Shown here piece after piece: positions 1 to 33,379 of a stretch of DNA of 64,000 nt. The DNA comes from Apostichopus japonicus (lineage: Eukaryota > Echinodermata > Holothuroidea > Aspidochirotida > Stichopodidae), in the NCBI RefSeq assembly GCF_037975245.1, contig NC_092580.1, forward strand, positions 34,131,001 to 34,195,000, given 5' to 3'. Under the pieces are notes generated by a model. That model was not told the DNA's origin. It did no database searches and saw only the letters and a program-made list of their open reading frames with translations. The translations under genes were made by a program, and so were the position numbers. Position 1 is the stretch's first letter. Every line of letters begins with the position of its first letter.

Positions 1-129
1 TAAGTTAAATAGTGAGACAAGTCTTGATTGCATTGTTGATTTCATGAATTGATTAATAGAGCAGTGTAGATGAAAGCGTTTCTTTCGAAACTTTTTGACT
101 CAACGTTTTCTTTTACACTAAGAAAGAAA

Positions 130-400
130 TTTGACGTGACCAACAATGTAACGATCAGGAATACGGATATATTCAGCATTACTGTTCGAGTGGAGTTGTT
201 CTTCATTAGTGCTGTGAACAATGCATTACCTCCCGTAGTAGTAAAACCCTTTATAAAGAAATGTTTCACTGGAAGTGGATGGAAGATATACGCCTCCGTT
301 ACCTATTTGAGTAAACCTGTATACAACCTCAGTGTGAATGCCACAATTCGAGGACCAGATGGAGCTAGTCATGAATTATTGTTGAGCGATATACCTGAAG
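130..400 (+). CDS. CLCA-like C-terminal domain, exon a (5' edge uncertain)
   Basis: The reading frame up to the donor at 401 (GTGAGT) carries the motif NNALPPVVV and then IYASVTYLSKPVYNLSVNAT, followed by RGPDGASHELLLSD. This pattern (N-x-LPP, then a beta-sandwich 'K-P-V-x-N-x-x-V-x-A' stretch) is what I know from the region after the VWA domain of CLCA proteins (calcium-activated chloride channel regulators: secreted or membrane metalloprotease/VWA proteins). The exon ends in phase 1 and joins in frame to the exon at 1215. The metalloprotease and VWA domains would lie left of the window. The acceptor is not clear; AG sites near 158 and 176 are candidates. Confidence 0.6.
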
Positions 401-1214
401 GTGAGTATGATTTTCAGATAAATTGTCTTTTAAAAGTCACTCAACTAGGGAATCTTCAAGAATGAAGTTGAACGGTGTTAAAGGTGTTTAGGATTAATTA
501 GACTGAATTCGCAAAATTGTAACTAGAAAAAGTCACAAGCCAAAATACAAAATATTGTGATAAGTGGACAATAAGGTTCACTGCTAACGGAACAGCCGGA
601 ATACACGTGCCTGCCAGTGGGGAAATATCCTCAAGGAAATTGAAGGCACAATTATGGTATTGATCTGACATTGTCGAACGACATTGAGTAGTATTAAACT
701 CTTAGGGCTACTTACCAAACCTCTGTCAAGTTTCTTTTAAGGGTGAATGAATTTTCAAGACGGCCGCTTCCATAAATTGTACTAGTTCAAGCGAGTTAGT
801 CTTATAAAACAACCGTTTGAAAGCACCTTTGCATGATTACCTACAAAAATCTTTAGCAAGTAAAAGTAAGTAAAAGCAAGTAAGTAAAACATGTTATTTG
901 AGATCACAAGTCTTATGTCCCCCATTTGGGATTTTTTGTTGCATCTGAGGACCTGACGCATTGATCTGTGTCCTAGACTAAAAGTCCAATCGATTAGGTT
1001 GATGAGCCGTAAGTGTTTCAAGGGTCATATCTCTTTGAAGTAAACCAACTTTTCAACTACTGTGATTGCTAACATCTTCCCGTCACCTGTCTAAGACACA
1101 CGTCTAGGATTACTAGGCTTCAACTTTAGGCTTCCTTGCATCACTGCAGAGATGCCACAACTTCCTTCTGTTTTATGTTTAAACCCAAGTGATGTTAAAT
1201 TTGCCTTTGTACAG
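401..1214 (+). other. Intron of the CLCA-HYR gene
   Basis: The donor GTGAGT is at 401 and the acceptor TTTGTACAG ends at 1214. I see no gene or repeat inside apart from a short 'aagtaagtaaa' type run near 860-890. Confidence 0.6.
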
Positions 1215-1367
1215 AGTCTGATGATATGATGGACGGGATATATTCAAATGTCATTGATGTCAACGGAAGCGGATGCTACTCTGTTCAAGTTACGGTTAAA
1301 GGAACAAATAATATTACTTGGAATATGGAAAATCTTCAGCCTAGTGGTGTCGTACCTTCTGAATGCG
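1215..1367 (+). CDS. CLCA-like C-terminal domain, exon b
   Basis: This exon of 153 nt is phase 1 at both ends (acceptor ACAG at 1214, donor GTGAGT at 1368). It reads ESDDMMDGIYSNVIDVNG and then SGCYSVQVTVKG. The 'D-G-x-Y-S ... G-x-Y-S-V-x-V' signature is the second half of the CLCA beta-sandwich, where vertebrate members have 'DDGVYSR...GRYSVKV'. It completes the domain begun in exon a. The last residues before the donor are VPSECG. Confidence 0.7.
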
Positions 1368-2415
1368 GTGAGTACATACCAACCCCCCCCCCCCCTCCGA
1401 CGCCTCAACGACCTTGGTGCAGGCATTCAAGTATCAGACGTAAATTAAGTATGCATTTGTAGGCTCAGTTAACTAGTTCGGGGTTGCCGTTAATCCGTAA
1501 TTGACGGGAACTATCATATTAGCACCAGGTAGTTGCGTCACAAGCTAAATATAGCTGTTATTTTGCGCTCTGCCATCTTTGCGACGTCCCCCCCCCCCAA
1601 CCCCCACCTCGCCCCACACACTATCCAAGGAGATAACACACTACCAGGCTTGTTATATCAAGTGTATGGTTATAAACGTATGCTATCATTATATCGACCG
1701 TCCGAAAGTTAACGTGTCCGACGAATATACAGACTTAAACCGATTAATTTTATAAAACCGATGGACTATGGTGCTGGACAGACAGTTTCGAAGTGGCTGA
1801 ATGAATGAAGCCTAAGTCGGTGAAACTGAGCCTCAGATAAAATAAATTTAAATCATAATTATTGTAAATCATAGACGAAAACCTAACGGCAATTGAAAAT
1901 CATATCGATATAGCATTTTGATGTTTTTAAGATTATTTAAATACTAAATTTGATTCGGCAAGTAACAAATTGTACTGGAAAAGTTAATGATCCAATTATA
2001 AAGAAAAAAATTGGGTTTTTGTAGACAAATTGTGAAAGATGTATTTATGGGATGTAAACAGAATAAGAACAGAACACACAGGATTATTATCTAAGAGTAT
2101 AGTGCCTTTATCTACAATATATCAAATTCATATTTTTAGTTTGACTACCCTTCAACAATTTAGCGGCTGGAACCCAGGAATAAACTGCTCAATTTGGATA
2201 AAGAAACATTCATCATAGTACCGTTAGAAATGGTTTCAACTGTTTTGGAATATTTGCAAAAGTACCTTATATGAATTATATGACCGAACTTGTCTATTGC
2301 GAAACTTCCCCCTACTCGAACTCTTTGCACCCCTCAGCACCCCCCCCCCCCTTGAAAAGTAAAGTTGCGCCACTGCCCACTAAGTTCAGCGTTATTCTTG
2401 TTTTTGTTTCGTCAG
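1368..2415 (+). other. Intron with C-runs
   Basis: This intron lies between exons b and c. It holds long C-runs near 1382-1396 and 1589-1599, and another near 2340-2352. No coding signal is visible. Confidence 0.6.
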
Positions 2416-2502
2416 ACGTACCATTAAATCCTTTAAATGCAGCATTGGAAAATGCCGACTCACTGATGCGGATGCCGAAAGAGTTGAATTTCCATGTGAC
2501 AG
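2416..2502 (+). CDS. Linker exon c between CLCA-like domain and HYR array
   Basis: This exon is 87 nt, 29 codons, phase 1-1. The acceptor TTTCGTCAG ends at 2415 and the donor GTATAG starts at 2503. It begins DVPLNPLNAALENADS and joins in frame at both ends. CLCA proteins have a short 'DVPNAPIPD'-like linker at the same place, which supports the model. No domain of its own is evident. Confidence 0.55.
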
Positions 2503-4102
2503 GTATAGTTTTCAGTGTATTGAGTAGTGTTATGCCAAGCCAGCATTTTCCAGCAAGTCCGTTATGTAGTCCATAACGACCATATGTGTTAAGAATCAAC
2601 GAGGATGGTCATAATATTACGCTACAAGGCCATTAACGTAAGTCGTAACGACCATATGTGTTGTAACGATCAGCGAGTGTAGGTCATAATAATTCGCTGC
2701 AGGTTCGTCAATGTAGTCTATAACGGCCATATGTGTTGTATCAATCAGCGAGTGTAGGTCCTTTAATGTAGTCCATAACGACCATATCTTTTATAAGAAT
2801 CAACGAGGATGGTCATAATAATTCGCTGCAGGTTCGTCAATGTAGTCTATAACGGCCATATATGTTGTAACGATTAGCGAGTATAGGTCCGTTAATGTAG
2901 TCCATAACGACCATATGTTTTGTCTGAAGCAACGAGGATGGTCATAATAATACGTTGCAAGTCCTTAACGTAATCCATAACGACCATATGTGTTGTAACG
3001 ATTAGCGAGCGCAGGTCCGTTAATGTAGTCCATAAACTACCATATGTTTTGTAAGAAGCAACGAGGATGGTCATAATAATACACTGCAGGTCCGTTAATG
3101 TAGTCCATAACGACCATATGTGTTGTAACAATCAGCGATTGTTGGTCCGTTAACGTAGTCCATAACGACCATATCTTTTGTAAGAATCAAAGAGGATGGT
3201 CATAATAATACACTGCCGCTGATGACAGGCAATAATTGCTATCAAAAGTTATGTCCAAACATTTTCATCTTAGTTGAAATCATCTTTGCGCATTATTTGT
3301 ACATTTAAGTAAAGTTACGTTTTTCAAAATGACCTAAATAACAAGCAAGAAACAAAAAACTTTAGTTGTAAAACAAATTGCAAGAACTTAATGCTTCTCT
3401 CAATTGCCCATAACTAATAAAAGAGCTTCTACTTTGTATATTACAGGAACTTGATTTATCCACTTGTAAAAGAAATATAAACTTGTGAAAAAAAAATCCG
3501 TTGCAAACTGAAGCTTCTTCTCTCGTATTTTGTTACCAAAAATGTAATATTTCATGAGAAAGATCAAAAAGTTATTAGGATGGCTTATTAGCAACTTATA
3601 GGCGAGAAAAAGTAGTCTCTTTTAGGGAAAAAAAATCGCAGACCAAAAACCACCTGTTCAACATCCACAATGAAATAAGATTCAAGCACAAAAATGATTC
3701 AAAGTATTGTTATGGGTCTATATGACATTTCTGAATGAGCAAAGCTATACTAATGTCTAAGTTTATTAGCAAAGCTGCTACCTATACCCATCGTGTTTTG
3801 CGTTCTTTGCTGAAAGTTTGAGTGGACATGTGTAAATCAGATTCGAAGATTCTTCCGGGTTAAATAAAAACATCGTTATTAGCAGATTTTGTGATATGCA
3901 GCTGATACCTACATATTGAATTATTGCCAACATGTTTTAGACGACTTACTAGAGCTTTTGTGACCATCAATTTGTAGAATATTGAGCGTTGGACAATGAG
4001 CAGTGTCCCTTCTTATAATCTTTCATTGGTTAAATCTACAATGGAAGCATATCTGAGTACATTTGCTAGAGAATCTTTCTTCTCTGCTTTTATCATTTGA
4101 AG
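2503..4102 (+). other. Intron before the HYR array
   Basis: It contains the minisatellite at 2566-3225. From about 3700 to the acceptor at 4102 the sequence is paralogous to the introns before the HYR relic exons at 48687 and 49525: the same 'tattgccaacatgtttta' and 'ggacaatgagcagtgtccctt' landmarks appear near 48510 and 48585. Confidence 0.6.
2566..3225 (+). repeat. Intronic minisatellite, alternating 55/74-bp monomers
   Basis: The landmark 'taacgaccatatg' or a close variant recurs near 2576, 2646, 2723, 2777, 2852, 2907, 2980, 3034, 3108 and 3166. Spacing mostly alternates between about 54-58 and 70-77 bp, so the real period is a dimer of about 130 bp. Each monomer also contains 'gtccataac' and 'ggtcataataat'. 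Copies differ by substitutions, so the array is not very recent. Confidence 0.8.
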
Positions 4103-4345
4103 ATGTGACTCCTCCAATGGCTAGTTGCCAAGAAAATATAATAACCGATGCAAGTCTGCAGGGAGGAACCACTGCAAGTGTTGATCTTGTGACATCATGT
4201 TCTGACAACATTGACACAGGCATTCAAGCTGCTTGTAATGCAACAAGCCAAAGTGAATTTCCAGTTGGTGTAACAAAAGTGACTTGTTCTTGTGAAGATT
4301 TGTCTCAAAATACTGACGAATGTTCTTTCACCGTCACTGTTAAAG
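4103..4345 (+). CDS. HYR exon 1 (divergent first unit)
   Basis: This is the first hyalin-repeat domain of the array: 81 codons, phase 1-1, reading D-VTPPMASCQENIITDA and ending SQNTDECSFTVTVK. HYR domains are immunoglobulin-like extracellular modules first described in sea urchin hyalin; here six cysteines sit at domain positions 9, 33, 45, 62, 64 and 74. It departs from the array majority at P4, M6, Q10, E11, N12, I14, S18, G21, S26, L29, N46, Q50 and K59. Its N-terminal half instead resembles the relic exons near 48.7 and 49.5 kb. It carries an N-A-T glycosylation sequon at 46. Confidence 0.85.
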
Positions 4346-5077
4346 GTTAGTTTGGGTGAATTTCTTACATATTGCTAAGAAGTTTAAAAACAGATCATCT
4401 GATTGCTTCTGTTTAATTGAGTCATTTCTCGAAAGTTTATTTCCATTATCAACAACGAATGTTTAAAGCCTAATTTATTCGATGGGAAGTTACTGAAAAC
4501 TATCACGGAGAAATTATCTTATCATGCACCAGAAAATGTTTGGCTAGTTTGTAAGAAGCCAAACCCTGTAGATGATCTGCATAGATCTTAGCAACACATG
4601 TGATGTTCTAATTCCGTGACCACAAATCTCTTCTGATGCTCCTTTTCAAACTAAAAAAAATGATACTAAGTATCGGAAGGGTCCTTATGACATTTCAGAC
4701 TGACCAAAGTTATATTTATGTTTAACTTTATTCATGAACACCAAAGCTGTTAACTATACTTATGCCCATGAGGTTTCATTCCTTGAATGAAAAGTTGTGA
4801 AGACAATTGTTAACCAGTTTTAGACATTGCTATGGCTTGAAAAACATCATTTACTGGTATATTTTATGATATGTGGCTGACATTTGCAACTGCATTTATT
4901 GTCCACGTCTTTTAGACGACATAATATAGCATTTGCGACCATCAGTTTGTTGCAAATTTAAAGTTAAACAATGAGCAATTTTATTTCTTAGCACCTCCCA
5001 ACATTTAAATATACAGTACTATCACATCTGAGTACATTTTCTAGTTAACCTTTCTTGTCTGCTTTTATAATTTAAAG

Positions 5078-5320
5078 ATGTGACTCATCCTTATGCGAGC
5101 TGTCCAAATGATATAGATACTGATGCAAGGCTGCAAGAAGGCACCACTGCAAGAGTTGATTTTGTGACATCATGTTCTGACAACATTGACACAGGCATTC
5201 AAGCTGCTTGTGATGCAACCAGCGAAAGTGAATTTCCAGTGGGTGTAACAACAGTGACTTGTTCTTGTGAAGATTTGTCTCAAAATACTGATGAATGTTC
5301 TTTTACCGTAACAGTTAAAG
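5078..5320 (+). CDS. HYR exon 2 (majority form)
   Basis: This exon encodes the commonest version of the domain, with THPYASCPNDIDTDARLQEG at its start and CDATSES at 45-51, so it has no N-A-T sequon. Exons 5, 7, 8, 9, 11, 12, 17 and 20 encode the identical protein. The following intron is the 732-bp type. Confidence 0.85.
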
Positions 5321-6052
5321 GTTAGTTTGAGTGAATTTCTTACATATTGCAAAGAAGTTTAAAAACAGATCATCTGATTGCTTCTGTTTAATTGAGTCAT
5401 TTCTCGAAAGTTTATTTCCATTATCAACAACGAATGTTTAAAGCCTAATTTATTTGATGGGAAGTTACTGAAAACTATCACGGAGAAATTATCTTATCAT
5501 GCACCAGAAAATGTTTGCCTAGTTTGTAAGAAGCTAAACCCTGTGGCTGATCTGCATAGATCTTAGCAACACATGTGATGTTCTAATTCCTTAGCCAAAA
5601 GTCTTTTCTTATCCTGCTTTTCACACCAAAAAATTAATACTGAGTATGGGAATGGGCCTTTATGACATTTCAGACAGACCAAAGCTATATTAATGTTTAA
5701 CTTTATTGATATACAACAAAGATGTTGCCTATACCTACATCCATGATGTATAACTTCCTTGAATGAAAAGTTGTGAAGACAATTGTTAACAAGTTTCAAA
5801 CATTCTTTCTGGCTTGAAAAACATCATTACTGGTATATTTCAGGATATTTGGCTTACACTTGCAATTGCATTTATTGTCAACATCTTTTAGAGGACATAA
5901 TATAGCATTTGTGACCATCAGTTTGTTACAAATATAGAGTTAGAAAATGAGCAATTTTATTTCTTAGCACCTCCCAACATTTAAATATACAGTACTATCA
6001 CATCTGAGTACATTTGCTAGTTAACCTTTCTTGTCTGCTTTATAATTTAAAG

Positions 6053-6295
6053 ATGTGACTCATCCTAATGCGAGCTGTCCAAATGATGTAGATACTGATG
6101 CAAGGCTGCAAGAAGGCACCACTGCAAGAGTTGATTTTGTGACATCATGTTCTGACAACATTGACATAGGCATTCAAGCTGCTTGTAATGCAACCAGCGA
6201 AAGTGAATTTCCAGTGGGTGTAACAACAGTGACTTGTTCTTGTGAAGATTTGTCTCAAAATACTGATGAATGTTCTTTTACCGTAACAGTTAAAG
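6053..6295 (+). CDS. HYR exon 3
   Basis: Compared with the majority form it has N6, V13, I39 and N46, so the N-A-T sequon is present. It is followed by the shortest intron class, 315 bp. Confidence 0.85.
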
Positions 6296-6610
6296 GTTAG
6301 TTTGAGTGAATTTCTTACAATGAAAAGTTGTGAAGGCAATTGTTAACCAGTTTTAGACATTCTTCTGGCTTGAAAAACATCATTTACTGGTATATTTTAT
6401 GATATGTGGCTGACATTTGCAACTGCATTTATTGTCAACGTCTTTTAGACGACATAATATAGCATTTGCGACTTTTAGTTTGTTGCAAATTTAGAGTTAA
6501 ACAATGAGCAATTTTATTTCTTAGCACCTCCCAACATTTAAATATACAATACTATCACATCTGAGTACATTTTCTAGTTAACCTTTCTTGTCTGCTTTTA
6601 TAATTTGAAG

Positions 6611-6853
6611 ATGTGACTCATCCTAATGCGAGCTGTCCAAATGATATAGATACTGATGCAAGGCTGCAAGAAGGCACCACTGCAAGAGTTGATTATGTGA
6701 CATCATGTTCTGACAACATTGACACAGGCATTCAAGCTGCTTGTAATGCAACCAGCGAAAGTGAATTTCCAGTGGGTGTAACAACAGTGACTTGTTCTTG
6801 TGAAGATTTGTCTCAAAATACTGATGAATGTTCTTTTACCGTAACAGTTAAAG
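6611..6853 (+). CDS. HYR exon 4
   Basis: Differences from the majority form are N6, Y29 and N46 (sequon present). The 1,009-bp intron after it is a mosaic of a partial and a full 446-bp intronic module. Confidence 0.85.
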
Positions 6854-7862
6854 GTTAGTTTGAGTGAATTTCTTACAATGAAAAGTTGTGAAGGCAATTG
6901 TTAACCAGTTTTAGACATTCTTCTGGCTTGAAAAACATCATTTACTGGTATATTTTACCACAAATCTCTTCTGATGTTCCTTTTCAAACTAAAAAAAATA
7001 GATACTAAGTATCGTAAGGGTCCTTATGACATTTCAGACTGACCAAAGTTATATTTATGTTTAACTTTATTCATGAACACCAAAGCTGTTAACTATACTT
7101 ATGCCCATGAGGTTTCATTTCTTGAATGAAAAGTTGTGAAGACAATTGATAACCAGTTTTAGACATTTCTATGGCTTGAAAAACATCATTTACTGGTATA
7201 TTTTATGATATGTGGCTAACACTTGCAACTGCATTTATTGTCAATGTTTAAAGCCTAATTTATTCGATGGGAAGTTACTGAAAACTATCACGGAGAAATT
7301 ATCTTATCATGCACCAGAACATGTTTGGCTAGTTTGTAAGAAGCCAAACCCTGTGGCTGATCTGCATAGATCTTAGCAACACATGTGATGTTCTAATTCC
7401 GTGACCGCAAATCTCTTCTGATGCTCCTTTTCAAACTAAAAAAATTGATACTAAGTATCGGAAGGGTCCTTATGACATTTCAGACTGACCAAAGTTATAT
7501 TTATGTTTAACTTTATTCATGAACACCAAAGCTGTTAACTATACTTACGCCCATGAGGTTTCATTTCTTGAATGAAAAGTTGTGAAGACAATTGATAACC
7601 AGTTTTAGACATTTCTATGGCTTGAAAAACATCATTTACTGGTATATTTTATGATATGTGGCTGACATTTGCAACTGCATTTATTGTCAACGTCTTTTAG
7701 ACGACATAATATAGCATTTGCGACTATCAGTTTGTTGCAAGTTTAGAGTTAAACAATGAGCAATTTTATTTCTTAGCACCTCCCAACATTTAAATATACA
7801 GTACTATCACATCTGAGTACATTTTCTAGTTAACCTTTCTTGTCTGCTTTTATAATTTAAAG

Positions 7863-8105
7863 ATGTGACTCATCCTTATGCGAGCTGTCCAAATGATATA
7901 GATACTGATGCAAGGCTGCAAGAAGGCACCACTGCAAGAGTTGATTTTGTGACATCATGTTCTGACAACATTGACACAGGCATTCAAGCTGCTTGTGATG
8001 CAACCAGCGAAAGTGAATTTCCAGTGGGTGTAACAACAGTGACTTGTTCTTGTGAAGATTTGTCTCAAAATACTGATGAATGTTCTTTTACCGTAACAGT
8101 TAAAG
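7863..8105 (+). CDS. HYR exon 5 (majority form)
   Basis: The protein is identical to exon 2 (D46, no sequon). The 761-bp intron that follows has one 446-bp module, starting at 8247. Confidence 0.85.
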
Positions 8106-8866
8106 GTTAGTTTGAGTGAATTTCTTACAATGAAAAGTTGTGAAGGCAATTGTTAACCAGTTTTAGACATTCTTCTGGCTTAAAAAACTTCATTTACTGG
8201 TGTATTGTATGATATGTGGCTAACACTTGCAACTGCATTTATTGTCAATGTTTAAAGCCTAATTTATTTGATGGGAAGTTACTGAAAACTATCACGGAGA
8301 AATTATCTTATCATGCACCAGAAAATGTTTGGCTAGTTTGTAAGAAGCCAAACCCTGTGGCTGATCTGCATAGATCTTAGCAACACATGTGATGTTCTAA
8401 TTCCGTGACCGCAAATCTCTTCTGATGCTCCTTTTCAAACTAAAAAAATTGATACTAAGTATCGGAAGGGTCCTTATGACATTTCAGACTGACCAAAGTT
8501 ATATTTATGTTTAACTTTATTCATGAACACCAAAGCTGTTAACTATACTTACGCCCATGAGGTTTCATTTCTTGAATGAAAAGTTGTGAAGACAATTGAT
8601 AACCAGTGTTAGACATTTCTATGGCTTGAAAAACATCATTTACTGGTATATTTTATGATATGTGGCTGACATTTGCAACTGCATTTATTGTCAACGTCTT
8701 TTAGACGACATAATATAGCATTTGCGACTATCAGTTTGTTGCAAGTTTAGAGTTAAACAATGAGCAATTTTATTTCTTAGCACCTCCCAACATTTAAATA
8801 TACAGTACTATCACATCTGAGTACATTTTCTAGTTAACCTTTCTTGTCTGCTTTTATAATTTAAAG

Positions 8867-9109
8867 ATGTGACTCATCCTTATGCGAGCTGTCCAAATGA
8901 TATAGATACTGATGCAAGGCTGCAAGAAGGCACCACTGCAAGAGTTGATTTTGTGACATCATGTTCTGACAACATTGACACAGGCATTCAAGCTGCTTGT
9001 GATGCAACCAGCGAAAGTGAATTTCCAGTGGGTGTAACAACAGTGACTTGTTCTTGTGAAGATTTGTCTCAAAATACTGATGAATGTTCTTTTACCTTAA
9101 CAGTTAAAG
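8867..9109 (+). CDS. HYR exon 6
   Basis: This is the majority form except L78 in the last beta strand (SFTLTVK). It is followed by a 761-bp intron. Confidence 0.85.
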
Positions 9110-9870: not shown

Positions 9871-10113
9871 ATGTGACTCATCCTTATGCGAGCTGTCCAA
9901 ATGATATAGATACTGATGCAAGGCTGCAAGAAGGCACCACTGCAAGAGTTGATTTTGTGACATCATGTTCTGACAACATTGACACAGGCATTCAAGCTGC
10001 TTGTGATGCAACCAGCGAAAGTGAATTTCCAGTGGGTGTAACAACAGTGACTTGTTCTTGTGAAGATTTGTCTCAAAATACTGATGAATGTTCTTTTACC
10101 GTAACAGTTAAAG
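9871..10113 (+). CDS. HYR exon 7 (majority form)
   Basis: The protein is identical to exon 2. The next intron is 1,206 bp with two 446-bp modules (10255 and 10701). Confidence 0.85.
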
Positions 10114-11319: not shown

Positions 11320-11562
11320 ATGTGACTCATCCTTATGCGAGCTGTCCAAATGATATAGATACTGATGCAAGGCTGCAAGAAGGCACCACTGCAAGAGTTG
11401 ATTTTGTGACATCATGTTCTGACAACATTGACACAGGCATTCAAGCTGCTTGTGATGCAACCAGCGAAAGTGAATTTCCAGTGGGTGTAACAACAGTGAC
11501 TTGTTCTTGTGAAGATTTGTCTCAAAATACTGATGAATGTTCTTTTACCGTAACAGTTAAAG
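11320..11562 (+). CDS. HYR exon 8 (majority form)
   Basis: The protein is identical to exon 2. With exon 7 it forms a 1,449-bp tandem unit, repeated at 9871 and 11320. Confidence 0.85.
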
Positions 11563-12768: not shown

Positions 12769-13011
12769 ATGTGACTCATCCTTATGCGAGCTGTCCAAAT
12801 GATATAGATACTGATGCAAGGCTGCAAGAAGGCACCACTGCAAGAGTTGATTTTGTGACATCATGTTCTGACAACATTGACACAGGCATTCAAGCTGCTT
12901 GTGATGCAACCAGCGAAAGTGAATTTCCAGTGGGTGTAACAACAGTGACTTGTTCTTGTGAAGATTTGTCTCAAAATACTGATGAATGTTCTTTTACCGT
13001 AACAGTTAAAG
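12769..13011 (+). CDS. HYR exon 9 (majority form)
   Basis: The protein is identical to exon 2. Its 732-bp intron is the same type as the intron after exon 2, so exons 9-11 echo the block of exons 2-5 minus one 558-bp unit. Confidence 0.85.
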
Positions 13012-13743: not shown

Positions 13744-13986
13744 ATGTGACTCATCCTAATGCGAGCTGTCCAAATGATATAGATACTGATGCAAGGCTGC
13801 AAGAAGGCACCACTGCAAGAGTTGATTTTGTGACATCATGTTCTGACAACATTGACACAGGCATTCAAGCTGCTTGTAATGCAACCAGCGAAAGTGAATT
13901 TCCAGTGGGTGTAACAACAGTGACTTGTTCTTGTGAAGATTTGTCTCAAAATACTGATGAATGTTTTTTTACCGTAACAGTTAAAG
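13744..13986 (+). CDS. HYR exon 10
   Basis: Compared with the majority form it has N6, N46 (sequon) and F75 (DECFFTV). Intron type 1,009 bp, as after exon 4. Confidence 0.85.
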
Positions 13987-14995: not shown

Positions 14996-15238
14996 ATGTG
15001 ACTCATCCTTATGCGAGCTGTCCAAATGATATAGATACTGATGCAAGGCTGCAAGAAGGCACCACTGCAAGAGTTGATTTTGTGACATCATGTTCTGACA
15101 ACATTGACACAGGCATTCAAGCTGCTTGTGATGCAACCAGCGAAAGTGAATTTCCAGTGGGTGTAACAACAGTGACTTGTTCTTGTGAAGATTTGTCTCA
15201 AAATACTGATGAATGTTCTTTTACCGTAACAGTTAAAG
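14996..15238 (+). CDS. HYR exon 11 (majority form)
   Basis: The protein is identical to exon 2. The 1,207-bp intron has modules starting at 15380 and 15826. Confidence 0.85.
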
Positions 15239-16445: not shown

Positions 16446-16688
16446 ATGTGACTCATCCTTATGCGAGCTGTCCAAATGATATAGATACTGATGCAAGGCT
16501 GCAAGAAGGCACCACTGCAAGAGTTGATTTTGTGACATCATGTTCTGACAACATTGACACAGGCATTCAAGCTGCTTGTGATGCAACCAGCGAAAGTGAA
16601 TTTCCAGTGGGTGTAACAACAGTGACTTGTTCTTGTGAAGATTTGTCTCAAAATACTGATGAATGTTCTTTTACCGTAACAGTTAAAG
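16446..16688 (+). CDS. HYR exon 12 (majority form)
   Basis: The protein is identical to exon 2. Followed by a 761-bp intron with one module at 16830. Confidence 0.85.
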
Positions 16689-17449: not shown

Positions 17450-17692
17450 ATGTGACTCATCCTTATGCGAGCTGTCCAAATGATATAGATACTGATGCAA
17501 GGCTGCAAGAAGGCACCACTGCAAGAGTTGATTTTGTGACATCATGTTCTGACAACTTTGACACAGGCATTCAAGCTGCTTGTAATGCAACCAGCGAAAG
17601 TGAATTTCCAGTGGGTGTAACAACAGTGACATGTTCTTGTGAAGATTTGTCTCAAAATACTGATGAATGTTCTTTTACCGTAACAGTTAAAG
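17450..17692 (+). CDS. HYR exon 13
   Basis: It has F37 (DNFDTG) and N46. F37 also marks exons 18, 21 and 22, which share an ancestor with this one. Intron 762 bp. Confidence 0.85.
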
Positions 17693-18454: not shown

Positions 18455-18697
18455 ATGTGACTCATCCTAATGCGAGCTGTCCAAATGATATAGATACTGA
18501 TGCAAGGCTGCAAAAAGGCACCACTGCAAGAGTTGATTTTGTGACATCATGTTCTGACAACATTGACATAGGCATTCAAGCTGCTTGTAATGCAACCAGC
18601 CAAAGTGAATTTCCAGTGGGTGTAACAACAGTGACTTGTTCTTGTGAAGATTTGTCTCAAAATACTGATGAATGTTCTTTTACCGTAACAGTTAAAG
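18455..18697 (+). CDS. HYR exon 14
   Basis: It has N6, K21, I39, N46 and Q50, and is followed by a 315-bp intron. It belongs to the exon 14/15/23 subfamily defined by Q50. Confidence 0.85.
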
Positions 18698-19012: not shown

Positions 19013-19255
19013 ATGTGACTCATCCTAATGCGAGCTGTCCAAATGATATAGATACTGATGCAAGGCTGCAAGAAGGCACCACTGCAAGAGTTGATTTTGG
19101 GACATCATGTTCTGACAACATTGACATAGGCATTCAAGCTGCTTGTAATGCAACCAGCCAAAGTGAATTTCCAGTGGGTGTAACAATAGTGACTTGTTCT
19201 TGTGAAGATTTGTCTCAAAATACTGATGAATGTTCTTTTACCGTAACAGTTAAAG
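19013..19255 (+). CDS. HYR exon 15
   Basis: It has N6, G30, I39, N46, Q50 and I59. G30 replaces the V of the VTSC strand and is unique in the array. Followed by a 315-bp intron. Confidence 0.85.
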
Positions 19256-19570
19256 GTTAGTTTGAGTGAATTTCTTACAATGAAAAGTTGTGAAGGCAAT
19301 TGTTAACCAGTTTTAGACATTCTTCTGGCTTGAAAAACATCATTTACTGGTATATTTTATGATATGTGGCTGACATTTGCAACTGCATTTATTGTCAACG
19401 TCTTTTAGACGACATAATATAGCATTTGCGACTTTCAGTTTGTTGCAAATTTAGAGTTAAACAATGAGCAATTTTATTTCTTAGCACCTCCCAACATTTA
19501 AATATACAGTACTATCACATCTGAGTACATTTTCTAGTTAACCTTTCTTGTCTGCTTTTATAATTTAAAG

Positions 19571-19813
19571 ATGTGACTCATCCTAATGCGAGCTGTCCAA
19601 ATGATATAGATACTGATGCAAGGCTGCAAGAAGGCACCACTGCAAGAGTTGATTTTGTGACATCATGTTCTGACAACATTGACATAGGCATTCAAGCTGC
19701 TTGTAATGCAACCAGCGAAAGTGAATTTCCAGTGGGTGTAATAACAGTGACTTGTTCTTGTGAAGATTTGTCTCAAAATGCTGATGAATGTTCTTTTACC
19801 GTAACAGTTAAAG
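19571..19813 (+). CDS. HYR exon 16 (first of the 3,459-bp higher-order repeat)
   Basis: It has N6, I39, N46, I58 and A71 and encodes the same protein as exon 19. It opens the first copy of the three-exon higher-order unit. Confidence 0.85.
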
Positions 19814-21021: not shown

Positions 21022-21264
21022 ATGTGACTCATCCTTATGCGAGCTGTCCAAATGATATAGATACTGATGCAAGGCTGCAAGAAGGCACCACTGCAAGAGT
21101 TGATTTTGTGACATCATGTTCTGACAACATTGACACAGGCATTCAAGCTGCTTGTGATGCAACCAGCGAAAGTGAATTTCCAGTGGGTGTAACAACAGTG
21201 ACTTGTTCTTGTGAAGATTTGTCTCAAAATACTGATGAATGTTCTTTTACCGTAACAGTTAAAG
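21022..21264 (+). CDS. HYR exon 17 (majority form)
   Basis: The protein is identical to exon 2 and to exon 20, its partner in the higher-order repeat. Confidence 0.85.
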
Positions 21265-22025: not shown

Positions 22026-22268
22026 ATGTGACTCATCCTTATGCGAGCTGTCCAAATGATATAGATACTGATGCAAGGCTGCAAGAAGGCACCACTGCAA
22101 GAGTTGATTTTGTGACATCATGTTCTGACAACTTTGACACAGGCATTCAAGCTGCTTGTGATGCAACCAGCGAAAGTGAATTTCCAGTGGGTGTAACAAC
22201 AGTGACATGTTCTTGTGAAGATTTGTCTCAAAATACTGATGAATGTTCTTTTACCGTAACAGTTAAAG
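22026..22268 (+). CDS. HYR exon 18
   Basis: It has F37 with D46. The protein is identical to exon 21, its partner in the higher-order repeat. Confidence 0.85.
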
Positions 22269-23029: not shown

Positions 23030-23272
23030 ATGTGACTCATCCTAATGCGAGCTGTCCAAATGATATAGATACTGATGCAAGGCTGCAAGAAGGCACCACT
23101 GCAAGAGTTGATTTTGTGACATCATGTTCTGACAACATTGACATAGGCATTCAAGCTGCTTGTAATGCAACCAGCGAAAGTGAATTTCCAGTGGGTGTAA
23201 TAACAGTGACTTGTTCTTGTGAAGATTTGTCTCAAAATGCTGATGAATGTTCTTTTACCGTAACAGTTAAAG
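23030..23272 (+). CDS. HYR exon 19
   Basis: Same protein as exon 16 (N6, I39, N46, I58, A71). It starts exactly 3,459 bp after exon 16. Confidence 0.85.
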
Positions 23273-24480: not shown

Positions 24481-24723
24481 ATGTGACTCATCCTTATGCG
24501 AGCTGTCCAAATGATATAGATACTGATGCAAGGCTGCAAGAAGGCACCACTGCAAGAGTTGATTTTGTGACATCATGTTCTGACAACATTGACACAGGCA
24601 TTCAAGCTGCTTGTGATGCAACCAGCGAAAGTGAATTTCCAGTGGGTGTAACAACAGTGACTTGTTCTTGTGAAGATTTGTCTCAAAATACTGATGAATG
24701 TTCTTTTACCGTAACAGTTAAAG
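24481..24723 (+). CDS. HYR exon 20 (majority form)
   Basis: The protein is identical to exon 2 and lies 3,459 bp after exon 17. Confidence 0.85.
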
Positions 24724-25484: not shown

Positions 25485-25727
25485 ATGTGACTCATCCTTA
25501 TGCGAGCTGTCCAAATGATATAGATACTGATGCAAGGCTGCAAGAAGGCACCACTGCAAGAGTTGATTTTGTGACATCATGTTCTGACAACTTTGACACA
25601 GGCATTCAAGCTGCTTGTGATGCAACCAGCGAAAGTGAATTTCCAGTGGGTGTAACAACAGTGACATGTTCTTGTGAAGATTTGTCTCAAAATACTGATG
25701 AATGTTCTTTTACCGTAACAGTTAAAG
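25485..25727 (+). CDS. HYR exon 21
   Basis: It has F37 and D46 and lies 3,459 bp after exon 18. Its 1,207-bp intron has modules at 25869 and 26315, one more than the intron after exon 18. Confidence 0.85.
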
Positions 25728-26934
25728 GTTAGTTTGAGTGAATTTCTTACAATGAAAAGTTGTGAAGGCAATTGTTAACCAGTTTTAGACATTCTTCTGG
25801 CTTAAAAAACTTCATTTACTGGTGTATTGTATGATATGTGGCTAACACTTGCAACTGCATTTATTGTCAATGTTTAAAGCCTAATTTATTTGATGGGAAG
25901 TTACTGAAAACTATCACGGAGAAATTATCTTATCATGCACCAGAAAATGTTTGGCTAGTTTGTAAGAAGCCAAACCCTGTGGCTGATCTGCATAGATCTT
26001 AGCAACACATGTGATGTTCTAATTCCGTGACCGCAAATCTCTTCTGATGCTCCTTTTCAAACTAAAAAAATTGATACTAAGTATCGGAAGGGTCCTTATG
26101 ACATTTCAGACTGACCAAAGTTATATTTATGTTTAATTTTATTCATGAACACCAAAGCTGTTAACTATACTTACGCCCATGAGGTTTCATTTCTTGAATG
26201 AAAAGTTGTGAAGACAATTGATAACCAGTTTTAGACATTTCTATGGCTTGAAAAACATCATTTACTGGTATATTTTATGATATGTGGCTAACACTTGCAA
26301 CTGCATTTATTGTCAATGTTTAAAGCCTAATTTATTCGATGGGAAGTTACTGAAAACTATCACGGAGAAATTATCTTATCATGCACCAGAAAATGTTTGG
26401 CTAGTTTGTAAGAAGCCAAACCCTGTGGCTGATCTGCATAGATCTTAGCAACACATGTGATGTTCTAATTCCGTGACCGCAAATCTCTTCTGATGCTCCT
26501 TTTCAAACTAAAAAAATTGATACTAAGTATCGGAAGGGTCCTTATGACATTTCAGACTGACCAAAGTTATATTTATGTTTAACTTTATTCATGAACACCA
26601 AAGCTGTTAACTATACTTACGCCCATGAGGTTTCATTTCTTGAATGAAAAGTTGTGAAGACAATTGATAACCAGTTTTAGACATTTCTATGGCTTGAAAA
26701 ACATCATTTACTGGTATATTTTATGATATGTGGCTAACATTTGCAACTGCATTTATTGTCAACGTCTTTTAGACGACATAATATAGCATTTGCGACTATC
26801 AGTTTGTTGCAAGTTTAGAGTTAAACAATGAGCAATTTTATTTCTTAGCACCTCCCAACATTTAAATATACAGTACTATCACATCTGAGTACATTTTCTA
26901 GTTAACCTTTCTTGTCTGCTTTTATAATTTAAAG

Positions 26935-27177
26935 ATGTGACTCATCCAAAAGCGAGCTGTCCAAATGATATAGATACTGATGCAAGGCTGCAAAAAGGCA
27001 CCACTGCAAGAGTTGATTTTGTGACATCATGTTCTGACAACTTTCACACAGGCATTCAAGCTGCTTGTGATGCAACCAGCGAAAGTGAATTTCCAGTGGG
27101 TGTAACAACAGTGACTTGTTCTTGTGAAGATTTGTCTCAAAATACTGATGAATGTTCTTTTACCGTAACAGTTAAAG
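26935..27177 (+). CDS. HYR exon 22
   Basis: It has K6, K21, F37 and H38 (DNFHTG). K6 and H38 are unique in the array. Followed by a 762-bp intron. Confidence 0.85.
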
Positions 27178-27939
27178 GTTAGTTTGAGTGAATTTCTTAC
27201 AATGAAAAGTTGTGAAGGCAATTGTTAACCAGTTTTAGACATTCTTCTGGCTTAAAAAACTTCATTAACTGGTGTATTGTATGATATGTGGCTAACACTT
27301 GCAACTGCATTTATTGTCAATGTTTAAAGCCTAATTTATTTGATGGGAAGTTACTGAAAACTATCACGGAGAAATTATCTTATCATGCACCAGAAAATGT
27401 TTGGCTAGTTTGTAAGAAGCCAAACCCTGTGGCTGATCTGCATAGATCTTAGCAACACATGTGATGTTCTAATTCCGTGACCGCAAATCTCTTCTGATGC
27501 TCCTTTTCAAACTAAAAAAATTGATACTAAGTATCGGAAGGGTCCTTATGACATTTCAGACTGACCAAAGTTATATTTATGTTTAACTTTATTCATGAAC
27601 ACCAAAGCTGTTAACTATACTTACGCCCATGAGGTTTCATTTCTTGCAATGAAAAGTTGTGAAGACAATTGTTAACCAGTTTTAGACATTTCTATGGCTT
27701 GAAAAACATCATTTACTGGTATATTTTATGATATGTGGCTGACATTTGCAACTGCATTTATTGTCAACGTCTTTTAGAAGACATAATATAGCATTTGCGA
27801 CTATCAGTTTGTTGCAAATTTAGAGTTAAACAATGAGCAATTTTATTTCTTAGCACCTCCCAACAATTAAATATACAGTACTATCACATCTGAGTACATT
27901 TTCTAGTTAACCTTTCTTGTCTGCTTTTATAATTTAAAG

Positions 27940-28182
27940 ATGTGACTCATCCTAATGCGAGCTGTCCAAATGATATAGATACTGATGCAAGGCTGCAAGA
28001 AGGCACCACTGCAAGAGTTGATTTTGTGACATCATGTTCTGACAACATTGACATAGGCATTCAAGCTGCTTGTAATGCAACCAGCCAAAGTGAATTTCCA
28101 GTGGGTGTAACAACAGTGACTTGTTCTTGTGAAGATTTGTCTCAAAATGCTGATGAATGTTCTTTTACCGTAACAGTTAAAG
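27940..28182 (+). CDS. HYR exon 23
   Basis: It has N6, I39, N46, Q50 and A71, and is followed by a 315-bp intron. It is closest to exon 14. Confidence 0.85.
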
Positions 28183-28497
28183 GTTAGTTTGAGTGAATTT
28201 CTTACAATGAAAAGTTGTGAAGGCAATTGTTAACCAGTTTTAGACATTCTTCTGGCTTGAAAAACATCATTTACTGGTATATTTTATGATATGTGGCTGA
28301 CATTTGCAACTGCATTTATTGTCAACGTCTTTTAGACGACATAATATAGCATTTGCGACTTTCAGTTTGTTGCAAAGTTAGAGTTAAACAATGAGCAATT
28401 TTATTTCTTAGCACCTCCCAACAATTAAATATACAATACTATCACATCTGAGTACATTTTCTAGTTAACCTTTCTTGTCTGCTTTTATAATTTGAAG

Positions 28498-28740
28498 ATG
28501 TGACTCATCCTAATGCGAGCTGTCCAAATGATATAGATACTGATGCAAGGCTGCAAGAAGGCACCACTGCAAGAGTTGATTTTGTGACATCATGTTCTGA
28601 CAACATTGACACAGGCATTCAAGCTGCTTGTAATGCAACCAGCGAAAGTGAATTTCCAGTGGGTGTAACAACAGTGACTTGTTCTTGTGAAGATTTGTCT
28701 CAAAATACTGATGAATGTTCTTTTACCGTAACAGTTAAAG
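28498..28740 (+). CDS. HYR exon 24
   Basis: It has N6 and N46 and is otherwise the majority form. The 721-bp intron after it resembles the intron after exon 1, so the two array edges share an older intron type. Confidence 0.85.
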
Positions 28741-29461
28741 GTTAGTTTGAGTGAATTTCTTACATATTGCTAAGAAGTTTAAAAACAGATCATCTGATTG
28801 CTCCTGTTTAATTGAGTCATTTCTCGAAAGTTTATTTCCATTATCAACAACGAATGTTTAAAGCCTAATTTATTTGATGGGAAGTTACTGAAAACTATCA
28901 CGGAGAAATTATCTTATCATGCACCAGAAAATGTTTGGCTAGTTTGTAAGAAGCCAAACCCTGTGGCTGATCTGCATAGATCTTAGCAACACATGTGATG
29001 TTCTAATTCCGTGACCACAAATCTCTTCTTATGCTCCTTTTCAAACTAAAAAAATTGATACTAAGTATCGGAAGGGTCCTTATGACATTTCAGACTGACC
29101 AAAGTTATATTTATGTTTAACTTTATTCATGAACACCAAAGCTGTTAACTATACTTATGCCCATGAGATTTCATTCCTTGAATGAAAAGTTGTGAAGACA
29201 ATTGTTAACCAGTTTTAGACATTTTTATGGCTTGAAAAACATCATTTACTGGTATATTTTATGATATGTGGCTGACACTTTATTGTAAACGTCTTTTAGA
29301 CGACATAATATAGCATTTGTGACCATCAATTTGTTGCAAATTTAGAGTGAGACAATGATCAATTTTATTTTTTAGCACCTCTTAACAATTAAATATACAG
29401 TGCTATCACATCTGAATACATTTTTTAGTTAACCTTTCTTGTCTGCTTTTATAATTTGTAG

Positions 29462-29704
29462 ATGTTACTCATCCTACGGCGAGCTGTCCAAATGATATAG
29501 ATACTAATGCAAGGCTACAAGAAGGAACCACTGCAAGAGTTGATTTTGTGACATCATGTTCTGACAACATTGACACAGGCATTCAAGCTGATTGTAATGC
29601 AACCAGCGGAAGTGACTTTCCATTTGGTGTAACAATAGTGAATTGTTCTTGTCAAGATATTTCTCAAAATACTGACGAATGTTCTTTCAATGTCATAGTT
29701 AAAG
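29462..29704 (+). CDS. HYR exon 25 (divergent last unit)
   Basis: Acceptor TTTGTAG ends at 29461 and donor GTTAGT starts at 29705; the exon is 243 nt and phase 1-1. It keeps all six cysteines but differs from the majority at T6, N16, D44, N46, G50, D52, F55, I59, N61, Q65, I67, N77 and I79. The second half (GSDFPFGVTIV, SCQDISQNTDEC) matches the relic exon at 49525, which is probably its orthologous position in a duplicated gene. Its second codon is GTT rather than GTG. Confidence 0.85.
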
Positions 29705-30542
29705 GTTAGTTTTGAGAGACTTTCTAATATTTTAATTTTTGTTTTCTTATATGAATACTGGCTGTTAAGATAAGACTTGGTTCAATAGTTTAGTTCCATG
29801 ATAAATAATGAACACTAAAAGCCTAGTTTATTTGATGGGAAGTTACTGAACACTATCACAGATACATGCTTTTATCAATTAAGCACCAGAAATATTTTTT
29901 ACCAGAAGCTAAACGCTCTGGTAGATCCTTACAGATCTTACCAACACATGTGATGTTTTACTTCCTTGACTAAAATTGTCTTCTGACGCTCCCATGCAAT
30001 CATAATAATAATTCGAAGTTTTGGAATGGGTCTGATGGAAATGTCGGACTGACGAGCGCTATCTTAATTTTTAACTTTATGTTATGATCTAACTTAGAAA
30101 CCACGTTAATAGTTCGAATCGTTTTAACAGATGTTAAAAACAAAAAGAAAACAAAAGTAACTTGTCTGAATGAAATATTTGTTAATGCGACTAATCAAAA
30201 TTAGAATAAACCAGTATCTCTTTCTCTTACCATCTCAATTTTCTGATGAGGATTGCCACAACTTCAAATTCCATATTCTTTCAATAGTTGACCATATTTG
30301 GAATAAAACATCCAGGTATTGAAAAGAACATCCAGTATGGCTATAATTCACACTCATCTAAATTGATAGACCAGATAGTACGTATTCTTTTCTCTTTCTA
30401 GTTTATTCCTAACTTCCCTTTAACCCACATATATGACATAATAAAGTATTAATTCGCCCTTCCACCTAGAGATCAATGCAACAGATATTCATGAACTGTT
30501 CATACTAAATTGGCTATTACTGAAAATGTAAAACAAAGAAAG
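29705..30542 (+). other. Intron between HYR array and mucin-like stalk
   Basis: The donor GTTAGT is at 29705. The first 90 bp match the start of the intron after the relic exon at 49768. The acceptor is uncertain: AG ending at 30542 gives the right phase 1 but has a poor pyrimidine tract. No gene is visible inside. Confidence 0.5.
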
Positions 30543-32606
30543 AAACCCCAACTGGTTATGACAATTCTTCAACTGCTGATACTAAATCGATGACTATTAC
30601 TGAAAGCCTTACTGCTAAAGTGGCAGCCCATCAAACTACTGGTAATGACAGTTCGTCAACTGCTGATACTAAATCAGTTATTGATATTAAATTGATGATT
30701 AGTAAACATTTAAATACAGAAGTAGTAACCCCTACTGGCAACGAAAGTTCTTCAACTGCTGATACTAAGTCTATGACAACTGAAAGCCTAACTACAGAAG
30801 TGTCAGGTCATCAAACTACTGGTAATGTCAATTCTTGAAATGCTGAAAACTAAATCAATTATTGATACTAAATTGATGATTACTGGAAGTATATGTACAG
30901 AGGTGTCAGGCCATCAAACTACGGGTATTAAGAGTTCTTCAACTGCTGATACTAAATCAACTGCTGATACTAAATCAACAATTGATGCTAAATCAACAAT
31001 TGATGCTAAATTGATGATTACTGAAAGCTTAACTAAAGTGATGGCAATCCCAACAAACTGCTGGTAATGACAATTCGTCAACTTTTGACACTAAATCGAT
31101 GACTACTGAAAGCATAACTAAAGTGGTGGCAGCCCAACAAACAACTGGTAATGAAAATTCTTCAACTGCTGATACTAAATCAATTATTGCTACTAAATTG
31201 ATGATTTCTAAACATTTTAATACAGAGGCAGTAAACTCTTCTGGTAACGACAGAGTTTCAACTGTTGATACTAAATTGACGACTACTGAAAGCCTAACTA
31301 CAGAAGTGTCAGGTCATCAAACTGCTGGTAATGACAATTCTTCAACTGCTGATACTAAATCAATTATGGATACTAAATTGATGATTACTGGAAGTATAAG
31401 TACACTGGTGGCACCCCAACAAAATGCTGGTAATGACAATTCTTCAACTGCTGATACTGAATCGATGACTACTGAAAGCATAAATACATTGGTGGCAGCC
31501 AAACAAACTACTGGTAATGACAATTCTTCAACTGCTGATACTAAATTAATTATTGATACTAAATTGATGTTAATAGACATTTTATTACATAGGTAGTAAC
31601 CCCTAATGGTAACGAAAGTTCCTTAACTCTTGATACTAAGTCGATGACTACTGAAGGCCTAACTACAGAAGTGTCAGGTCATCAAACTACTGGTAATGAC
31701 AATTCTTCAACTGCTGATACTAAATCAATTATTGATACTAACTTGATGATTACTGGAAGCATAACTTCAGTGGTGGCACCCCAACAAACTGCTGGTAATG
31801 ACAACTCTTAAACTGCTGATACTGAATCTATGACTACTGAAAGCATAACTACAGAAGTGTCAGGTCATCAAACTACTGGTAATGACAATTCTTCAACTGC
31901 TGATACTAAATCAATTATTGATACTAACTTGATGATTACTGGAAGCATAACTACAGTGGTGGCAGCCCAACAAACTACTGGTAATGACAATTCTTCAACC
32001 GCTGATACTAAATCAGTTATTGATACTAAGTTGATGATTAATAAACATTTTATTACAGAGGCAGTAACCCCTACTGGTAACGAAAGTTCTTCAACTCTTG
32101 ACACGAAATCGATGACTACTGAAGGGCTAACTACAGAAGTGTCAGGTCATCAAACTACTGGTAATGCCAATTCTTCAACTGCTGATACTAAATTAATTAT
32201 TGATACTAAGTTGATGATTAATAAACATTTTATTACAGAGGCAGTAACCCCTACTGGTAACGAAAGTTCTTCAACTCTTGACACTAAATCGATGACTACT
32301 GAAGGGCTAACTACAGAAGTGTCAGGTCATCAAACTACTGGTAATGCCAATTCTTCAACTGCTGATACTAAATCAATTATTGATACTCGATTGAGGATTA
32401 CTGAACATTTTAATACAGAGGCAGTAACCCTAACTGGTAATGACAGTTCTTCAACTGCTGATACTAAATCAACTGTAGCTTCTAAAGTGATGATTACTGA
32501 TCACTTTAATACAGAGGCAGAAATCCCTACTGATAAGGACAGTTCTTCAACTGTTAAAACTAAATCAATGATTACTGAAAGCAATATTTATAACCCATTT
32601 TTTTAA
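30543..32606 (+). pseudogene. Thr/Ser-rich mucin-like repeat stalk, interrupted
   Basis: This stretch encodes repeats of 28-35 residues such as SSTADTKSIIDTKLMITGS, TTEVSGHQTTGN and NKHFITEAVTPTGNESS. They are rich in Thr, Ser and N-x-S/T sequons, as in heavily O-glycosylated stalks. Only the last part (from 31812) is open for more than 250 codons. Breaks are a TGA at 30836-30838 with a 1-nt insertion just after, a 1-nt insertion near 31046-31050, a 1-nt deletion near 31570 followed by stops, and a TAA at 31809-31811; the frame closes with TAA at 32604-32606. Sister repeats show the intact form at each break. The cause could be real decay, sequencing error or unusual splicing; I cannot tell which. 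Confidence 0.65.
32011..32370 (+). repeat. 180-bp (60-codon) near-perfect tandem duplication in the stalk
   Basis: The sequence at 32041-32220 is repeated at an offset of exactly 180 bp from 32221, with only a few mismatches (for example g/t near 32105 and 32285). The unit joins one HFITEAVTPTGN-type and one TTEVSGHQTTGN-type repeat and keeps the frame. Confidence 0.85.
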
Positions 32607-33161
32607 AAGTTACCATGTTTATTGCCATTTCAATTTTGGAGATGTACAATAATGTTTCAATTCCATTGGTCGATTAAGGTTCTGAAGATCTCAAATGTTT
32701 GTTTGATCTTTTTATTCATTTTTGACGGACGATTACGTTAGTAACATCCTCGATTAATGGTTTCTTTTAGATTTATTTTCGTTGACGTCATTCTAACTGT
32801 GCCATCGACCGCGTTATTGATGCTATTGTTTCTTATCACCAAATTTTCATTGTAACAATGCTTTGTTTATGTTTTTATTGATACTAAATCATTACTAAAA
32901 ATATTATCACAAAGGCAGCAAACGTATCAATTGTAAAGATTGTCCACGGCTTAGAGTACAACTCCTTGTGCTTGAAACCTCGTAGTTTGTTACTTACTAG
33001 CTAACTGGCATACAAGCATGGCATATATAGGTCTAGATAAGCCTGTTACTCCGCATATGAATAATTCCTGTTAAAATGATTGATATGTTCATTATCAGTT
33101 TCATCTGATCCAGACGTTTCACGATTAACAACTGTTATCATTAATTGTTATCATATCACAG
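32607..33161 (+). other. Probable intron before the transmembrane exon
   Basis: There is no open frame of note. Possible acceptors end at 33098 (TTATCAG) and 33161 (ATATCACAG); both give phase 1 into the same frame. The donor is not identified. Confidence 0.4.
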
Positions 33162-33379
33162 GAGTGCCGAAAGTAACGTTCACTACCGAAGTACCGATCC
33201 TTGCAACCATGAAACTTAAGGAGAATCAAATACCTGTTATCATCATACCTGTTTCCATCGCAATTGCATGTTTTGCTGTCTTGTCAATTCTATTGAGGTA
33301 TATCGAGGTTACTTTCCGACGTTCTGGTAGTAATGAAATCAAAGATCCTGAAAGGGCAAGGCACCTCCAGACAGCCTAA
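33162..33379 (+). CDS. Last exon: transmembrane helix and cytoplasmic tail
   Basis: The exon reads GVPKVTFTTEVPILATM and then a hydrophobic segment IPVIIIPVSIAIACFAVLSI, about 22 residues and enough for one membrane helix. A basic stop-transfer stretch (RYIEVTFRRSG) and a short tail ending RHLQTA follow, with a TAG stop at 33377-33379. Phase 1 entry fits the other exons. The topology implied is type I: CLCA, HYR and stalk outside, about 27 residues inside. The exon may instead begin at 33099 and include 21 more residues. Confidence 0.65.

Follow-up and report, generated by a model that had tools for sequence, protein, structure and literature searches.

What protein is encoded where exons of CLCA type run into a long array of HYR exons in the sea cucumber Apostichopus japonicus? 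The window analyzed here comprises 64,000 nucleotides (C20:34131001-34195000, where C20 is contig NC_092580.1), and the gene in question, copy A of a tandem group, enters it from the left. The genome searched consisted of 35 contigs with 671,581,487 bases; one of them, C35, is a mitochondrial genome with the order COX1-Arg-ND4L-COX2-Lys, which is typical of echinoderms, and its genes read through with the echinoderm code. An initial annotation had proposed one large CLCA-headed HYR surface protein, and this proposal is well supported by a 37-exon chain, by a CLCA profile match and by the same chain in the tandem copy B. We consider it fairly probable that the gene encodes a type-I surface protein for adhesion or recognition, which has a pseudoprotease CLCA head and a rod of 25 HYR domains that varies by unequal crossing-over.

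The predicted gene has 37 exons on the + strand, spans about 59 kb (C20:34105604-34164379) and encodes 2,815 amino acids from Met to stop with no internal stop. Splice sites read on the sequence are GT-AG and in phase at every internal junction, exons a-c continue in frame into HYR exon 1, and HYR exon 25 is joined in frame to the exon for a transmembrane (TM) helix. The in-frame order from exons a-c through 25 HYR exons on the + strand, as annotated before, was borne out; exon a was corrected to 127-400, phase 0 to 1. The TM exon with its single hydrophobic helix and the AATAAA behind it were confirmed as well, while eight head exons upstream of the window (E1-E8) and three decayed HYR exons at 47815-49769 had been overlooked. 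Left of the window, a PF08434 match in the profile search of the contigs lies at C20:34125613, and tblastn with open frames from two other CLCA loci gave further head pieces at 34105724, 34116125 and 34127786. The features are as follows; E1-E8 are supported by the in-frame GT-AG chain, and HYR exons 3-24 by splice sites and the in-frame chain.

Contig C20, left of the window:
34105604-34105813 (+), exon E1
34106811-34107001 (+), exon E2
34116079-34116224 (+), exon E3
34125617-34125864 (+), exon E4, containing HLWGH
34127786-34128013 (+), exon E5
34128839-34129003 (+), exon E6
34129547-34129750 (+), exon E7
34130279-34130464 (+), exon E8
Window positions:
127-400 (+), exon a, phase 0 to 1, CLCA beta-sheet region (GT-AG chain, TIGR00868)
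1215-1367 (+), exon b, phase 1-1, CLCA beta-sheet region (GT-AG chain, TIGR00868)
2416-2502 (+), exon c, phase 1-1, linker of 29 residues preceding the HYR array (GT-AG chain)
4103-4345 (+), HYR exon 1 (PF02494 E 3.4e-13; splice sites)
5078-5320 (+), HYR exon 2 (PF02494 E 4.1e-12; splice sites)
6053-6295 (+), HYR exon 3
6611-6853 (+), HYR exon 4
7863-8105 (+), HYR exon 5
8867-9109 (+), HYR exon 6
9871-10113 (+), HYR exon 7
11320-11562 (+), HYR exon 8
12769-13011 (+), HYR exon 9
13744-13986 (+), HYR exon 10
14996-15238 (+), HYR exon 11
16446-16688 (+), HYR exon 12
17450-17692 (+), HYR exon 13
18455-18697 (+), HYR exon 14
19013-19255 (+), HYR exon 15
19571-19813 (+), HYR exon 16
21022-21264 (+), HYR exon 17
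22026-22268 (+), HYR exon 18
23030-23272 (+), HYR exon 19
24481-24723 (+), HYR exon 20
25485-25727 (+), HYR exon 21
26935-27177 (+), HYR exon 22
27940-28182 (+), HYR exon 23
28498-28740 (+), HYR exon 24
29462-29704 (+), HYR exon 25 (PF02494 E 2.9e-10; splice sites)
30402-30445 (+), possible alternative last exon, low confidence (acceptor, V-Y-S-stop, AATAAA; by eye)
30524-32603 (+), Thr/Ser-rich tandem repeat, annotated before as a stalk (stops, frame breaks, flat codon positions)
33099-33379 (+), last coding exon, phase 1, encoding the juxtamembrane part, the TM helix and a short cytoplasmic tail up to the stop (chain; homologues in copies B and C)
33236-33292 (+), predicted TM helix (hydropathy peak)
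33713-33718 (+), AATAAA (sequence)

The whole chain is presumably transcribed as one unit. Two genes lying head to tail, a CLCA-derived one that stops behind exon c or has a last exon not seen here, and an HYR-TM gene with its own first exon, would be a quite improbable arrangement. It would be compatible with the 1.6-kb intron between exon c and HYR exon 1, a join predicted from genomic sequence, and with the occurrence of HYR arrays under other heads on contig C4. However, the phase-1 donor of exon c and the phase-1 acceptor of HYR exon 1 agree in copies A and B, the combination of exon a, HYR array and TM exon is found three times, and no separate signal-peptide exon was noticed between exon c and HYR exon 1 (no search was aimed at one).

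The modules of the array are nearly identical. Each of the 25 HYR exons is open, exactly 243 bp long, in phase 1-1 and flanked by AG and GTTAGT, and 25 × 81 residues agree with the roughly 2,025 HYR residues estimated initially. The three array exons given to Pfam all passed the HYR cut-off of 21.7 bits (46.7, 50.2 and 40.8 bits), every unit carries six cysteines, and 22 N-glycosylation sequons are spread over the 25 units, which represent 15 distinct coding sequences. A search of the PDB with one HYR unit gave no match. Unit spacing is 558, 964-1005, 1252 or 1449-1451 bp in copy A and 976-978 or 1105-1110 bp in copy B; these spacings suggest that repeated unequal exchange shaped the arrays. 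An open frame of 55-56 codons (..CLKPNLFDGKLLKTITEKLSYHAPENVW..) recurs in the HYR introns, e.g., at 7209-7373 and 8213-8377; it moves with the repeat and is probably a chance product.

For the head, the hidden Markov model search of the joined exons, including DNA left of the window, found a nearly complete CLCA N-terminal domain (PF08434 positions 2-262 of 266, E 5.7e-33, 115 bits, cut-off 25.6). TIGR00868 was matched by the joined head with E 2.8e-39 and 134.6 bits, far below the full-length model cut-off of 900.85, and by joined exons a, b and c at positions 585-687 of 863 (E 3.7e-5), exons a and b occupying this range. DUF4694 and Glyco_hydro_81 were sub-threshold Pfam matches on the head and were not believed. 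The hallmarks of a self-cleaving metalloprotease with a VWA domain, both ascribed to the head before, are missing from this match. The HExxH motif reads HLWGH, i.e., the catalytic Glu is replaced by Leu, and the same holds for all three C20 loci of a motif census in which it could be read (A, B and the neighboring CLCA locus D at C20:33885760). Elsewhere, HEW[GA]H was present in 20 of 22 CLCA loci read (21 short fetches and a CLCA locus on C16); one had REWAK (L046), and L041 was ambiguous, with no HE ahead of WAH in the open frame. This census covers a subset of the CLCA loci, with copy C unreadable at the motif and two minus-strand C20 loci outside it. A VWA domain with a metal ion-dependent adhesion site (MIDAS) was not detected in the window gene by Pfam, NCBIfam, tblastn with the two CLCA queries or phmmer against the PDB, while the C16 CLCA used as positive control matched the solved CLCA1 VWA (E 2.6e-18). 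The head may contain a very diverged VWA, and the end of E5, EDSNT, which stands opposite DTSGS of the C16 CLCA in an alignment by eye, may be a VWA remnant.

The C-terminal part of CLCA proteins (TIGR00868 positions 690-863) is likewise absent, as the match of the window exons ends at 687. In the ordinary CLCA on C16, homologous exons are followed by a match to positions 730-863 that ends near a TM-like helix (by eye). Judged by this comparison, the HYR array is a replacement of the C-terminal part of ordinary CLCAs. Human CLCAs self-cleave near residue 700 (PMC10669480), so the array would start close to the canonical cleavage point. A Glu-to-Gln exchange at the HExxH position abolished self-cleavage of CLCA2 (PMC10669480). 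With the catalytic Glu lost, no self-cleavage in cis is predicted for the window head. CLCAs with substituted active sites have already been described (PMC3650047, where the exchanges named are E-to-L in reprolysins and H-to-R or H-to-K in CLCA_N), so the inactivation of a CLCA is in itself no novelty. CLCAs are reported to carry a fibronectin III domain (PMC10669480); Pfam called none in the C16 CLCA exons.

Copy A does not stand alone. The genome contains three occurrences of exon a and three of the TM exon; on one strand of C20 they form pairs in matching order, and each pair encloses HYR exons. The numbers of HYR exons are 12 in copy C, 27 in copy B and 25 in copy A. At the sensitivity of the genome search used, the TM exon was found only in these three copies. 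Copy B shares the 11-exon head (96.7% identical to A), followed by 27 HYR exons and the TM exon (3,015 amino acids), and all splice dinucleotides of A and B are intact; for copy C, the analysis covered the part from E6 onward. Locus D showed no HYR of the window type up to 33913000, except for one opposite-strand hit at chance level (E 0.042).

These copies could be dead or decaying products of a recent duplication, with frames still open only through recency and an HYR array that has no present function; we regard this as rather unlikely. It would fit that outside the array most aligned blocks above 1 kb are 91-98% alike between copies, introns included, that the Thr/Ser-rich repeat is broken and the cytoplasmic tails are frame-shifted, and that the copy C array holds open frames of reverse-transcriptase type (named by eye). 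The ratio of nonsynonymous to synonymous differences (pN/pS, Nei-Gojobori) near 1 in the HYR exons points the same way. Against decay, all 64 HYR exons of the three copies are 243 bp long, in phase 1-1 and without a stop, the donor being GTTAGT in 63 and GTCAGT in one (copy B). In equal-length alignments no indel event was seen in the 64 exons vs 16 in the 5′ and 25 in the 3′ flanks, part of the latter figure reflecting different intron types in copy A. Outside the array, synonymous changes are in excess between A and B (10 exons, pN/pS 0.39, p 0.004) and between A and C (8 exons, pN/pS 0.45, p 0.011). These tests cover the non-array exons plus the last HYR exon (for A-C only E6-E8, a, b, c, last HYR and TM), do not model transition bias and rest on copies that are not independent; in the A-B totals the E4 row is in frame but spans a few intron codons. 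Intact splice dinucleotides in A and B also argue against decay.

At the 3′ end, no hydropathy peak of the 2,815-residue product other than the TM helix exceeds the threshold used, and the last coding exon contains a second in-frame phase-1 acceptor ahead of 33162. LRR_8 on this exon (19.7 of 27 bits) stayed below its cut-off and was not believed. The mucin-like stalk annotated at 30524-32603 did not hold up as an intact exon and was rejected as such for the window copy, which has frame breaks. The repeat has periods of 18, 84, 102, 180 and others, its frame is broken several times in the window copy and by two in-frame stops in B and one in C, the stops sit on a recurrent unit variant, B-C substitutions are distributed 50/50/47 over codon positions, i.e., without codon-position bias, and no good pyrimidine-rich phase-1 acceptor was seen ahead of it by eye. 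Probably the repeat is untranslated or a decayed exon. Because frame 0 is open over 991 codons in B (two stops) and 644 in C (one stop), a coding past is suggested. These long frames, together with several repeat periods divisible by 3 and with phase-1 GGTAATG and TACAG sites in the repeat units that could splice out a stop (by eye), would also suit a genuine mucin-like stalk, encoded by one exon or by several small ones and placed between HYR25 and the TM helix, which we find improbable given the breaks in every copy, the flat codon positions and the lack of a right-phase acceptor.

A different end of the transcript is offered at 30402, where a pyrimidine-rich acceptor is followed by V-Y-S-stop in phase 1 and AATAAA (30440-30445); its use would possibly yield a form without the TM helix. 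It is unlikely that the main product is this secreted form, joined from HYR25 to the 30402 acceptor, and acts as a matrix or mucus component instead of a membrane receptor. In its favor, the acceptor is aligned unchanged in A, B and C with AATAAA in A and B, and CLCA1 is a secreted mucus protein (PMC6851300); yet the AATAAA is lost in C, and the TM exon is conserved in all three copies with its helix open. Both 3′ ends may be used.

We return to the membrane-anchored adhesion or recognition protein with pseudoprotease head and HYR rod. Its product would be a type-I membrane glycoprotein with a signal-peptide-like start (the N-terminus resembles a signal peptide by eye), a CLCA N-terminal domain with a lost zinc-protease site, an unrecognisable region at the VWA position, the CLCA beta-sheet region, 25 HYR domains, one TM helix and a short tail, and would be exposed at the cell surface. 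The CLCA head would serve as a non-catalytic binding module, so the precursor would not cleave itself, and the rod would space the head from the membrane. Rod length would shift through unequal crossing-over between exon-intron cassettes, and since the cassettes are symmetric (phase 1-1), exchange would never break the reading frame.

Several observations weigh against this model. The 37-exon chain is a prediction from genomic sequence, the N-terminal hydrophobic stretch lies below the hydropathy threshold used, and the joined head matched no solved structure in the phmmer search of the PDB. The CLCA2 mutant was still cut by co-expressed wild type (PMC10669480), and by analogy the window head may be cleaved in trans by an active CLCA. 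HYR pN/pS is near neutral both within arrays (A 0.69, B 1.63, C 0.78) and between them (A-B 0.66, A-C 0.54, B-C 1.15); since these values are near 1, the HYR units are, by this measure, weakly constrained except in frame, length and cysteines. An AlphaFold model of one HYR unit was uninformative (predicted local distance difference test, pLDDT, 38.6; 16 window sequences). Finally, the cytoplasmic tails of A, B and C differ through frame shifts, and the 3′ end is made uncertain by the stalk and by the possible alternative terminus at 30402.

The HYR subtype of the window also fills minus-strand arrays on C4, with up to 94% protein identity among the matches listed and cassette introns 80-86% alike between C4 and window. 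One of these arrays (C4:22798144-22842357, -) holds at least 45 units and has Ig_2, GPS and 7tm_2 exons downstream on the same strand (exons not joined), for which reason its gene is very probably an adhesion G-protein-coupled receptor (GPCR). The profile search of the contigs gave no PF08434 match on C4. Among the best 150 scored of 1,534 and the best 150 of 920 HYR candidates, PF02494 and PF08434 cluster together only on C20. The cassette common to the CLCA cluster and the adhesion-GPCR-like genes is a clear candidate for phase 1-1 exon shuffling. A more tentative idea, to which we give a low probability, is a fast-evolving recognition system in which one HYR cassette spread between two unrelated receptor types, the CLCA receptors with pseudoprotease heads encoded on C20 and the adhesion GPCRs of C4; both would then display near-identical extracellular rods varying in length and sequence per copy, a property that would fit the recognition of gametes or of self.

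Hyalin and other HYR-array proteins have long tandem HYR rods. The window gene shares this feature; in contrast, a CLCA head was not reported for them in the excerpts compared. With the CLCA family (PF08434; human CLCA1, CLCA2 and CLCA4) the product shares a near full-length N-terminal domain and the beta-sheet region, and its predicted type-I membrane anchor resembles that of CLCA2, whereas HLWGH in place of HExxH, the undetected VWA and 25 HYR domains past model position ~690 set it apart. The C4 genes share its HYR subtype and cassette introns but differ in the exons following the array and in the lack of PF08434 on C4; the window product is not adhesion GPCR-like, as the model ends after one hydrophobic helix without GPS and seven TM helices. 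By analogy, the sea urchin egg bindin receptor EBR1 may be the nearest functional counterpart (PMC8403831, PMC5521101). EBR1 and EBR1_5 are echinoderm extracellular proteins with multiple HYR domains; EBR1 is titled a novel ADAMTS protein, a metalloprotease-family name joined to HYR (PMC8403831), and EBR1_5 combines seven HYR with a transmembrane domain (PMC5521101). They differ from the window gene by the CUB and TSP1 repeats of EBR1 and the SEA domain of EBR1_5, and neither is said in these excerpts to have a CLCA head; CUB and TSP1 gave no Pfam match in the joined head or in the HYR and TM exons submitted. An HYR rod of 23 repeats is known from bacterial HycP (PMC3723904). In open-licence PubMed Central literature, no CLCA-HYR fusion was described among the titles and abstract openings listed, and no paper was found that linked the HYR domain with sea cucumbers. 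The excerpt of PMC9763293 mentions only the hyalin layer, HYR is absent from the main text of PMC12716839, and a 'hyalin-like' gene is listed within an A. japonicus growth quantitative trait locus (PMC8772784). In the CLCA-type genes described here, both hallmark parts, the zinc-protease site and a recognisable VWA, were apparently lost, and a long adhesion rod was acquired; its number of modules varies from one tandem copy to another. This predicts that CLCA heads have non-catalytic roles, and the locus is a candidate case of length evolution in echinoderm surface proteins.

Further observations concern related arrays and the remaining window. Several arrays of the window HYR subtype lie within C4:22604338-22902277 (-), and other HYR subtypes form arrays on C2, C3 and C4, e.g., C3:10386753-10414316 and C2:11760320-11802649 (among the best 150 of 1,534). 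The CLCA family is greatly expanded, with 76 PF08434 exon matches on C1, C6, C14, C16 and C20. The three HYR exons at window 47815-49769 (+) have diverged and are in part truncated (Pfam HYR E-values of 1.1e-8 to 1.9e-8); they are what is left of a further array, about 14 kb beyond the TM exon. An Rfam scan of the window gave no match at the gathering threshold. The stretches at 57637-59016 (-), 62613-63296 (+) and 55078-55578 (-) gave a weak Pif1 2B-domain match and a weak PHD match (both below cut-off) and a retrotransposon gag match (just above), respectively. Two similar 427-codon fucosyltransferase (GT10) open frames lie at 41018-42298 (-) and 52615-53895 (-), with Pfam E-values of 6e-47 and 2.6e-46.

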